From Tubulanus polymorphus (lineage: Eukaryota; Nemertea; Palaeonemertea; Tubulaniformes; Tubulanidae), in contig NC_134025.1 in assembly GCF_964204645.1 (NCBI RefSeq), positions 10,607,001 to 10,671,000 on the forward strand: a DNA stretch of 64,000 bases, in the 5' to 3' direction. The notes beneath the pieces were generated by a model. That model searched no databases. It was not told the origin of the DNA and saw nothing but the letters and a program-made list of their open reading frames with translations. The number at the start of each line of letters is the position of its first letter. Position 1 is the first letter of the stretch. Of the stretch, positions 10,237 through 20,900 are shown in pieces. The position numbers and the translations under genes are program-made.

Positions 10237-13200
10237 TCATACGTTCGATTCGATTCCGTTCAGTCTCGGTTCTAATACTCGCGGCGTTTTCCCTGAATTA
10301 AGCGCTTGTTCGAACTCAAGCAGTTGTCCCATGAAGTTGAAGTTCGGTGATATGATTGCCCGTTTGTTTTTCACGTACCGATACGTGTCGATCATCGACA
10401 TGAGAGTGTGTTTCATAATGTAGGCGATGGTGATGGTGGCCGACCTCGACACTCCCGCGTGACAATGTATTAGAATGTTGACACCGTTGTCCCGAGCTTC
10501 GTCTGAAGAATACAAAAAAGTCATCTTATTAATAAAACATTAAGATAGATTCGAATAGAAAATGCAGGATGAATCATTTTTACACGAAAGAAAAATGTTC
10601 TTCAGTTTTTTGTCGAAATTTTCACTTTCGAGTTATTTTCTCAACGAAAAAATCAAAGATATTTAGAAGCTTATGATTAATACCTCTGTCATTCTATGAT
10701 CAATAACAATTAAATATTTCTAAACAAAACCCAACTAATCGATTGATTGTATGCCTGTATCTATAGTTCTCCTACGACATCAGGTTACCTCGGGCCACCG
10801 TCCGAAGTATCCCTAAAAAAATCGTCAACTGATCGAAGTTAGTTGAACACTTAACAAAGTTTTCCCGATTCGCATAACGATCATTAATTACGGTAAGTCA
10901 AAACACGCAAATTACGCCAAACGATAAATCGCTTTATTGTCGCGAATTGTCTCTCTCATTCTTTAAGCGCCGTCGCGCCTTTGGGTTCGCCAGAGCTGAA
11001 TGGCTCATAAAGTGCGTGGTCTCTCTTTAGGAGGATACGCGCATCCATTGTGATATAGACGCTAGTTTCGTGAGTCATTCCTACGAACGCTCTGTGAAGA
11101 CAAATCGCTTGCAGCGATGACGTTACGGAGCAGGTAACAATGCGCCGAACAATAGCTTTCGACTATTGTTCTATTTCTTTTGTAATTATGTTACTGAAGT
11201 CCTCTCATTATTGAATATGATACCGGGGTGATGACTGACTCATCACCGATGCCGAGTTTATCACATCAGACAGAGGTGAAGTCAAACATTCTGATGACAA
11301 TCCAGCCAATTTGAAACATTCAAGATTGATACCCCGGCACTCGAAGCACAAACAGGATCTCTCTTGAAGAACGCTTACGAACTTTTTTATTCAAGTGATT
11401 ATTTGATGATTTGTTTTACGATGAAACTAACCTCGTATTCGCTTCTGCGAGCGCGATAGCTTTCCCGAAAATAATTACCAATGTAAGGTAAACAAAAATC
11501 AATAAGCGGGTAAAAAACTTTGAGGCGCTTCACACCGGACACGGCAAATAGACGACTTACGTCAACTACGAATTCAATAATCGACGCTCATTGATTTAAT
11601 TAAAAGCTAGTTATTCAATCAACCCAAAAACAATAGTAGGTCGGACACCTGCTAACTAGGGTGCGAAAATGACTAATGATGAAGCCGTCAATTAACAATA
11701 GACTCACAATGGACGCTATTAGTATCTCTAAAGGTGAGTCATAAATGAGGGATGACAAAGACTGGGAGACCATTGGTCCCATCTGTCTCCATTGTCTACG
11801 ACAAGTTTACAATGCACACATTAAAAAGTTTCAGTAAGAATTATAATCGTTCTCCAATATAATCGTCGATGGGTGTGCGTGTGAGTCAGAGGGGCAGCGA
11901 GGAGGAGCGTGTCACTTGCCTGTCGATCTAAAAACCTCCTCGTCCTCCGGCGAGGCGCGGTTCACGTCGCCCCGTTTGAACCGCGCTATTTTGAAAACAC
12001 GGCGGTAACGGTTTTTTTTCTCTTTTCAGTCGGAAACGATGAATAACAGAGGCGACTTTCTACTCAAATAAAAACTAATGTCCACAACATATTGAACAAT
12101 GAGGTGACTCATGTTGCAAATGTTGCGATGCGGACAAAGCAGCCGAAAACCGTTGCACTTTTCGGAGGTATTTGAACCGAAAGGTTTAAACAACTACTTC
12201 CCTAGTTAAAATACTGCTATGATATCGCTTATGTCGGGGTGTATGAAAGTAGTTAGCAAATAATTAGTTTCACTTAACCGTTTCAAACTAAACGTGATTT
12301 CCAAGGATAAAAAGATTCCAAGTTCATTCACCGACAGTTCATTGACTGAGATACAATCGACCAAAACGATCATAATAGCGAACGGGATGGGAAAAATATG
12401 ATGAATAATTCCCGCTTGTAAATACAAATATAAACACATATATACTCATGCATTTCATGTGGTAGGTTTGTTTTGCGAATCAATACCAGTATTTAGAGTT
12501 TAGTAACTGAGTCACACTAAATAAACGAATTGAACTCGTGGGAATTTCTACCGAAACTTCCTCTTTATTGCAGCAGCCGGAAATTTTCAAAACGATTTTA
12601 CGTCACCGAAACGGCCGCTGTTGTATACGACGTACTTACCGATAAACGAGAACGCTTCTTCGAAGTACTGTTTGAGGTTTTGTTGTCCGGAATCCGTTGC
12701 CGGCAAACGTTTGTACGTGATTCCCTGATTTTCGAAGTGTCCAGGAATGTGCGACGTCACATTCAGAACGTATGTTATTTTCAGGTCGTCGAGGAGATTT
12801 TTGTTGGCGGCATCTCGCTCATTTCCTGCACCGAGAAACAAAAAAACAAGGTTTTAAATGTTTAATCACCCTTGTATACTTTCATATATATATCTATACT
12901 TTTATATAAATGCGTTGTTGAATTACCAGAACTATAGCCGGGTTGTACAACCAAAATCAGCGCAGTTCGTTTTATGCGTAATCTGGCATATTTATTATCA
13001 AATTATGGTTAAACTACTCCCCTCGTATAGTCTAATCATTTCGATTTCACTGTTTCTTAATCGTTCAAAAAATTATGATTCAACTCTTTCCAAAATTCCA
13101 TGCCAATTATGGCAGAATTTCAATAAGGCAGCACTTAAAATAATAATCGAACGGATGTTTCCGCTGGGAGTGCGGGGCAATCAACATCAATGCGCCGATG

Positions 13201-17961: not shown

Positions 17962-20900
17962 GTTTATGTATCAAACGTGATATGTTCGCTTCTTTTTTTG
18001 AGCCCGTACAAAGAAATAACGTAAACTTTTGAACAAAATGCAAAATGGATGAGTCATAACGACGTAAACGTAGATTTTACACGTGTTGCTATGAAAGCGC
18101 ATACACATGCACGCGCACGCTCGACGAATCGTCACCAGGTACTATACACTAGATTATAGTTACTTCAGGTACACTTGCTGAAGTTTTCAGACCGTTATTT
18201 CTGCACCAAGCTGACGATCATTTTTACCGGGGCTTTATTTAATGGTTTGGGTGCTCGATCATCATCTCTAGATCGGTGACACATCGATTCGGCCACGCGA
18301 CTACAATAGATGTCACAAGAACAATAGCAGTTGTTGTGAGTCATTTGGGTTTACACGCCGCAGCTGTGTCAGGTCCGCGCGTTACTGTGCGCGGCGGTAC
18401 ACACAGCGTATCGGGCAGAGCTTTTCAACGACTCTCCCGTCGTCGCAATCGAAAAGATAAAATCCACTTTATGAATTAATATATCCACTATATCGCTTGT
18501 GTTTTCAAAACAAGGTAAATTCAACGTCGGGTGTGACTCAGCGTGCGCGCGCGCGCGGATATATCTCAAATCAGACAGCTTATAAATGAAAAAATCAATT
18601 TGACCAAAGGCAGCTGTGACACGCTGATCTCGTAGTATGATACCGAAATGAATTAAATAAAGAGAGAATGGTCGATTTTCATGATTGTAAATGATAAACC
18701 GATTTTCTAGTAATAACAGAAAAGTCGGTTTCGCGTATTCAATACCGGGTTATGAGAAAAGAAAAACGTCATTTCCCTTTGTTACTAACGCGTTGAAAAG
18801 CCGAAGTTTACCTATCATCAAAAGACGAATTCGTATTTAACATCTGGTCATGGTTTTGTCCGCGCACCGTGAGTCACCGACGCGCGCGCGTGCGTGCGTT
18901 CAAAACTTCCGCGCAGTGTTTTTGCGTATTTTTAACTTCGAAAACGATGAAGGATGAGCAGTCATCTGAAATCGTTCGTCGGCTTCACAATTCAAATCGC
19001 GCCTCGATATTGTACGCGCAGTCGTTCGTTACAAATTTTCACATCTCTATCATCCGGAAAAAACAGAGATCCCATATGCTTAAAAGTCCACCCTACAAAA
19101 TTCATATTACAGAAAATTTTCGAAGGCATTAGCAAAAGTAAGTTTTTATAGAATCCGTACCCTACGTATATACTTTTTCTAAAATGAAATAAAACAAAAG
19201 GACGATATGAAAAGAAATACGAATGAAATGAAATATCCCTCTACAAGTTTTGCAAACAAGTTTGTGATTTTATTTGAAGAAAGGGAGGAGAAAAACGAAA
19301 ACCGAATTTTTGCGGGGAAAACCCGCAAAAATTTCAGCTTTTGGTTTTTTCCAGTGATGATCAGAATATTGTTATTATTTTTTGAACTGGAAACCGACAA
19401 GTTGCCTATAAAACTGTCGCAACGGAGATGAAATATCATTTTTCGTAAAAAAATATTTTGGTTAACGTGTTTTTTCAGCTTGTCCAAATATGGGCATTCG
19501 TGGTGATTATTTGCATTGCTTATCAAGTTTCAAACTTGGAATATGCATTTTATAAGTAAAGCGCTGACCCGTAGGTTTTGAAAATAACATATGCGGAATA
19601 TCTCGTTTATAGAACGGTAAACACTGAGAAATAATTACAATTATGATGAGTAATGACACGCGTTGGATTTTGTCGTTTCGCGGTGTGGAGTTTACGGATT
19701 GCAATGCGGGCAGACGACAGGCATTGTTTCAAGACCGCGTTGACGCGCACTTTCAGTAATCACCGCTGATGAAATGACTCACCTATAAACACAAAGAACA
19801 TTAGTTTAATGTAACGAAGATGTTGTCATTTAATTACTAGGTGAGATATCCTTGGTATAGGTGATCAATCGGACAATACCAATCTAAAGTGGATGGCCGC
19901 TGATTTGCGCGCGCGTGAATCACCCGAAATTTGATAAAAAATGTTGATTAACAACAAACATTCGATTATCTGACCAATCATTGGTTACCGACCACTTTCC
20001 GTGTTTATCAACTTATCTTTTAAGAACTTGTTTGAATAGAAAAGCAATAAACTATCGCATAATTAAATAATCTACTGTATTTATTTCACTATTATCAAAA
20101 ATAAAGCAGAAAAATTTACAACTTCTAAAAAAGTATGTTAACCATCAATCATTGGTGGCCAATAGCGCACAAGTCGTATACATTTCTATTCTAATATTGA
20201 TTTAAGCCATGGGTTTTCTTTCGTGTAGATATCGTCACCAAAATCATGGTTTGATTTGTTGGTAGCATAGTTTCTTTATAATCGACGGGTCTTATCTCGG
20301 TCTACCCGATAAAAAGAAGAGAAAAACAATTCAATCTTGCCGAATACCCAAAGTGTTACTCAGCGGGTCGAGGGATAAGAAGATATCGAAATAAGTCGTC
20401 TTAAAAATGACCCCAAGATTTTGACCGCGACGACATGCGACAACGCGTAGTGTAGTTGAATTGTCATTTTTGTCACCGATTCCTGATGTGTCATTCATTG
20501 TTTAGTCACAGCGACCGGCGACAATGATTAACAATTAGTCATAGCTTTTCTTTGATAAACCATTTCATCAATTCTATTTTATTCATAAAAAGATACGCAG
20601 ATGCCGGTTGGCTGGTAGGCTGGTAGGCTGGTTGCCGGGTTGTCCCAAAGCGACTGGTAACGGTCCAAACCGCTGTGTGGAGAAGGGGCTACACCATTAT
20701 TATTGTTTTCAGTTAAAACATATTTCTTTTTATCCTTGAGGAATGTGATGAGCATTAAAAGGTCATATAAAATAATACTGAAAAATTGTATTTTGAATAT
20801 TGTTCTCGCTTAAAGTTAATTTTGATTTTGTGTGTGAATCTTCTGGCTTCACACATGTAACACCGTTGAGGTACCGTCATTTGCATTCACAAGGACTTAA

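Follow-up and report, generated by a model that had tools for sequence, protein, structure and literature searches.

The stretch analysed here, called the window, comprises 64,000 nucleotides of chromosome C1 of the nemertean Tubulanus polymorphus (contig NC_134025.1, positions 10,607,001 to 10,671,000); positions are counted from its first letter, with negative numbers to its left. It carries a minus-strand gene for the phosphatase DUSP10 (MKP-5) and part of a domain rich in TGASTCA, the AP-1 heptamer. The domain, C1:10,577,102-10,626,781 (window -29,898 to 19,781), holds 43 TGASTCA in 49.7 kb, with 5.3 expected (P ~1e-24, or 1e-11 with an over-dispersed null), and contains DUSP10, the DNA upstream of DUSP10 and 40 kb of intergenic DNA whose far end is close to an IκB gene. 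From the sequence, we consider it probable (roughly 0.6) that this is a sharply bounded cis-regulatory domain of ~50 kb, in which a dispersed homotypic cluster of AP-1 sites would place DUSP10, and perhaps IκB, under stress feedback. A first-pass annotation had described a cluster at 11071-19781; these limits were wrong, as they enclose only the right part of the ~50-kb domain adjoining the IκB gene. The observation is real and larger than first noted, and its interpretation is plausible but unproved.

Exact matching finds 24 TGASTCA in the window, 16 within 11071-19781 and 8 elsewhere, which agrees with the 16 exact heptamers and about eight others of the first-pass annotation. The remaining eight had been taken to be near chance; their number holds, but five of them (285-6243) belong to the same domain, which runs 30 kb further left. 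Dinucleotide shuffles of the window gave a mean of 7.6 sites and at most 13, with 24 or more in 0 of 100. The genome assembly has 28,354 TGASTCA in 267,791,593 bp on 77 contigs, so 0.92 are expected per 8,711 bp; for 16 in 8.7 kb the Poisson P(>=16) is 5.5e-15, which amounts to ~3e-9 clusters of this kind by chance over the whole genome. An over-dispersed null, whose parameters came from the first 853 kb of chromosome C1 with repeat arrays included, raises P to 1.6e-7 per 8.7-kb bin and the genome-wide expectation to 0.005 bins. Since 268 Mb are assembled and flow cytometry gave 313-358 Mb, as stated in an excerpt of PMC8468679, these counts may not cover the whole genome.

Twenty control stretches of 10 kb, whose coordinates are round numbers within the first 1-10 Mb of C1-C8 (not a random sample), contain 0-3 TGASTCA each and 22 in total, or 0.96 per 8.7 kb, in agreement with the genome count; 11071-19781 is denser than each of them. 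In the first 853 kb of C1, 8.7-kb windows starting at a site reach a maximum of 8 TGASTCA, six of which are from a tandem array, and otherwise 5, versus 16 here. For the form RTGASTCAY, the first 2.98 Mb of C1 give a maximum of 8 (a tandem array) and otherwise 4, versus 11 here; double rows in the C1 site lists were collapsed. Many windows of similar density, which the first-pass annotation held would speak against its cluster, were not found in the ~1.1 Mb examined (the 20 controls plus the first 853 kb of C1). When 11071-19781 is compared with the controls and with the remainder of the window, no 7-mer other than an AT repeat shows a stronger enrichment than TGASTCA. Two tandem arrays were recorded on C1: one at C1:903373-903732 has 8 ATGACTCAT places, 39 or 78 bp apart, and one at C1:464983-465162 has 6 CTGACTCAG places.

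The edges of the domain are sharp. Going left from the start of the window, successive 10-kb steps hold 9, 5 and 8 TGASTCA and then 0, 0 and 2; outside the domain there are 2 in the next 30 kb on the left and 3 in the next 44 kb on the right. The ratio of observed to expected CpG ranges from 1.11 to 1.56 across the domain (ten 5-kb bins) and from 0.75 to 1.37 outside it (fourteen bins), and the stretch of raised CpG, from -30,000 to 20,000, is possibly an unmethylated regulatory domain. The site groups in the window and the coding exons of DUSP10 are as follows.

1..19781, no strand: in-window part of the AP-1-rich domain, 21 TGASTCA
285..6249, no strand: five TGASTCA 3' of DUSP10 (285, 2273, 3255, 3808, 6243), part of the domain
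10237..10502, minus strand: DUSP10 coding exon 4, active site HCHAGVSRS and stop
11071..12514, no strand: six TGASTCA in DUSP10 intron 3 (11071, 11236, 11735, 11882, 12105, 12508)
12640..12825, minus strand: DUSP10 coding exon 3, first part of the DSPc domain
13550..13711, minus strand: DUSP10 coding exon 2, linker and first residues of the catalytic domain
14122..14703, no strand: four TGASTCA in DUSP10 intron 1 (14122, 14197, 14614, 14697)
16013..16631, minus strand: DUSP10 coding exon 1, N-terminal extension and rhodanese/MAPK-binding domain
16992..19781, no strand: six TGASTCA upstream of the DUSP10 ATG (16992, 18050, 18337, 18534, 18870, 19775), the last at the right edge of the domain

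Introns 1 and 3 of DUSP10 and the 3 kb upstream are the densest and best-matching part of the domain. In our gene model, the joined exons form an in-frame reading of 410 residues plus a stop. The best solved match of the joined protein is the DUSP10 catalytic domain 2oud (2.3e-66), and the rhodanese domain matches 3tg1, also DUSP10 (6.8e-36). By sequence, then, the gene is DUSP10/MKP-5, of the JNK/p38 phosphatase class, and the matches over both domains bear out its earlier identification. The Tubulanus protein itself was not found among the 120 of 719 matches listed, so the model is one of our own splicing. By this model the sites are placed as previously described (introns 1 and 3 and about 3 kb upstream), with 4, 6 and 6 sites, respectively; none of the 16 is in a coding exon and all lie in the non-coding DNA of the locus. 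Because untranslated regions were not mapped, the site at 16992 could lie in the 5' untranslated region.

The excess is specific to the heptamer. TGASTCA shows the highest enrichment in the domain (8.8-fold) of all 128 classes of palindromic 7-mers, for which the median is 0.94. Its one-mismatch neighbour TGACGCA, which we take to be an ATF/AP-1-type variant, is raised 5.7-fold, with 15 copies versus 2.6 expected from the background or 3.7 from the genome count (p 8e-6); other one-mismatch neighbours stay at or below 1.8-fold. The motif GCGCGTTA was also considered, with 6 copies versus 0 in 274 kb of local background, yet the genome count gives an expectation of 0.73 (p 1e-4, uncorrected), and it was dropped.

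A second line of evidence, independent of the number of sites, comes from the flanking bases. AP-1 prefers A or G, and disfavours T, directly 5' of TGASTCA on either strand. At DUSP10 all 16 sites have the form VTGASTCAB, versus 12,035 of 28,354 (42.4%) in the genome (p 1.1e-6), and 11 of 16 have the form RTGASTCAY, versus 6,089 of 28,354 (21.5%; p 6.6e-5). When the flanks are oriented, A or G occupies 27 of 32 positions and T none. In the whole domain the two forms account for 33 and 20 of the 43 sites, respectively. This preference points to binding. The sites also appear to have been placed independently: comparison of their surroundings revealed no flanking homology beyond the trivial overlap of near neighbours, in line with the earlier claim that they share no repeat. 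An origin from tandem or dispersed repeats was rejected. One site of the domain, at -16626, adjoins a local inverted repeat.

Density, flank preference and independent placement fit regulation of DUSP10 by AP-1, and no fewer than 16 bZIP matches, counted by exon, are listed for the genome. Stress or wounding would activate JNK or p38, upon which AP-1 dimers (Jun/Fos/ATF-type bZIP proteins) may load the many dispersed TGASTCA sites; loaded AP-1 would raise, rather than repress, transcription of DUSP10, and the phosphatase would then dephosphorylate JNK and p38, switching the signal off. The 40 kb upstream of IκB make up the left part of the domain, and the same AP-1 sites may also drive that gene, which keeps NF-κB sites at its own locus. 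We infer binding, activation, target genes and feedback from the arrangement of the sites, and the strong negative-feedback enhancer that the first-pass annotation proposed at DUSP10 has the same standing. As the domain also adjoins the IκB gene, DUSP10 need not be the only target.

Several observations weigh against AP-1 feedback on DUSP10. The flank preference is weak outside the DUSP10 part, where 17 of 27 sites have the VTGASTCAB form (p 0.025) and 9 of 27 the RTGASTCAY form (p 0.11). A repeat-rich subtelomeric place, chosen from the RTGASTCAY list, has the latter form in 6 of its 7 sites, so flank bias by itself is no proof. One of the control stretches (L018) combines a CpG ratio of 1.46 with a single TGASTCA, which shows that a raised ratio alone does not bring AP-1 sites. 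The DUSP19-like locus on C10, the one other DUSP locus compared, has 1 TGASTCA in 10 kb; high density is thus no rule for phosphatase genes. Finally, AP-1 is not alone in recognising TGASTCA: CNC-Maf, Bach, BATF, JDP2 and ATF3 dimers do so too, and some of these are repressors.

The subtelomeric place (C1:138-158 kb; L027 and L028) exceeds every other patch near the C1 start in RTGASTCAY density, the tandem array at 903 kb excepted, and was set aside as repeat-filled subtelomeric DNA. It is minisatellite-rich, and inspection of its open reading frame lists by eye, without a protein search, showed no gene. Counted by exon, 23 DSPc matches are listed for the genome, two of them in DUSP10 itself.

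The gene at the left edge of the domain is the following.

-33,991 to -31,610 (C1:10,573,009-10,575,390; L024:6009-8390), minus strand: IκB gene (NF-kappa-B inhibitor alpha-like), four exons

Its joined protein of 432 residues is 100% identical over its whole length to 'NF-kappa-B inhibitor alpha-like' of Tubulanus polymorphus (446 aa). It has ankyrin repeats, an acidic tail and two DSGxxS motifs (DSGFGS and DSGIES), which have the degron form. The ATG is at -31,610, and the first AP-1 site of the domain lies 1.7 kb upstream of it. Around the gene there are three NF-κB-type GGGRAWTYCC sequences in 6.8 kb (-37,628, -34,626 and -30,807). Among the first 100 of 4,902 genome matches, which give 82 distinct places in C1:1-10.84 Mb, no other three fall within 7 kb of one another. 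The 49.8 kb of the AP-1 domain contain no GGGRNWYYCC, with 3.6 expected, and looser forms occur there once each (GGGRATTYYC, 1.3 expected; GGGAWTTCC, 2.2 expected). NF-κB sites are therefore not mixed with the AP-1 sites, and two motif territories abut. Over the genome, GGGRAWTYCC has 2,437 + 2,465 matches, versus 551 + 587 for the reversed pattern.

This arrangement raises the question of which gene the domain serves. It might mainly be a 40-kb upstream control region for AP-1 induction of the NF-κB inhibitor; DUSP10 would then be a bystander, with sites in its introns by accident. The short distance from the first site to the IκB ATG agrees with this, as does the fact that 27 of the 43 sites are outside 11071-19781, between the 3' end of DUSP10 and the 5' end of IκB, 22 of them left of the window. 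We nevertheless consider it unlikely, since density and flank match both peak at DUSP10 (16 sites, all of the VTGASTCAB form) and not near IκB, which has NF-κB sites of its own.

A more inclusive proposal is that both genes share the domain as a stress brake, AP-1 ending the JNK/p38 branch (through DUSP10) and the NF-κB branch (through IκB) together, and that they stayed linked by sharing it; we put this forward tentatively, as a possibility somewhat better than that of IκB being the main target. In Lineus longissimus, a DUSP10-like protein (57% identical) and a cactus-like protein are each encoded on a contig of 29,083,594 bp, and the equal lengths suggest that the two genes are probably on one chromosome.

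The identity of the binding proteins is a separate matter. Another bZIP set, such as CNC/Nrf2-small Maf, Bach or the repressors ATF3 and JDP2, could occupy the sites, in which case the domain would sense oxidative stress or silence genes rather than mediate JNK feedback. All these dimers accept TGASTCA, and C or G flanks several of the left-hand sites (e.g., CTGACTCAG). This reading is doubtful given that the extended Maf/NF-E2 form TGASTCAGCA occurs only once in the domain, with 0.5 expected, and that the flanks at DUSP10, rich in A or G and devoid of T, correspond to the preference of Jun-Fos.

It is very improbable that the cluster is without function, a by-product of regional composition (CpG-rich, repeat-poor), mutation bias or repeats: the raised CpG ratio coincides with the domain and the start of C1 shows tandem arrays able to form dense AP-1 patches, but Markov models of orders 1-3 predict 5.6-7.5 TGASTCA in the domain versus the 43 observed, the sites are without common flanking homology, and the flank preference would need another cause. 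Compositional chance was rejected on these figures and on the shuffles, which were likewise too low, and an effect of CpG only because TGASTCA contains no CpG and the median of the 128 palindrome classes is not raised. An order-4 model on a short region predicts 5.6, where we think that the model learns from the sites themselves.

Within the domain there is also a tRNA-Leu gene (6134-6226, minus strand). Five open reading frames of the domain had no match when compared with Pfam (window 1950-2297 and 4952-5341; L021 1467-1829 and 2056-2469; L022 5494-5838); as only these five were searched, an overlooked gene may lie in the intergenic part. A 248-bp inverted repeat immediately beyond the right edge of the domain (21474-21721 and 23366-23613; arms 95% complementary and separated by 1.6 kb) resembles a mobile element. 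Further right, 46478-46867 (plus strand) resembles the beginning of an M13 (neprilysin-type) peptidase, a weak match that falls under the Pfam cut-off.

The statistical signal is legible from the raw sequence and is uncommonly strong for evidence of that kind, and the sharp edges make the domain testable. It offers a natural case for studying the spread of homotypic clusters and how stress pathways may share off-switches through one regulatory domain. Among the abstract openings and search results listed, no recognisable report described a DUSP10 gene with so large an AP-1 domain. Among known systems, the autoregulation of NF-κB through IκB is resembled by the IκB gene and its NF-κB-type sites; here the gene differs in adjoining a 50-kb AP-1 domain that lacks GGGRNWYYCC.

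Mammalian DUSP10, of the same enzyme class as the Tubulanus polymorphus gene, is a JNK/p38-selective phosphatase, according to an excerpt of PMC6227380. For the mammalian gene, the sections of PMC6480380 at hand propose promotion by MAPK with a negative feedback loop and name PPAR, EGR, STAT5b, RUNX1, VDR, NFAT5 and NF-κB as regulators; an AP-1 cluster is not among the regulators named in those sections. Drosophila puckered offers a parallel in regulation: the JNK pathway stimulates expression of this JNK phosphatase gene, whose product then lowers JNK activity, as summarised in part of PMC3324472. A JNK phosphatase under JNK feedback is thus already known in flies, and a domain serving two brakes would be new if true. 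The gene described here differs from puckered in being DUSP10/MKP-5 with a rhodanese domain, in having many sites over tens of kb and in that its induction by JNK is one we infer. As for the arrangement of sites, the damage enhancer BRV-B near Drosophila wg depends on AP-1, and deletion of three predicted sites abolishes its activity (PMC4786413, in excerpt); BRV-B is compact, with three sites, whereas Tubulanus polymorphus has 16 in 8.7 kb and 43 in 50 kb.

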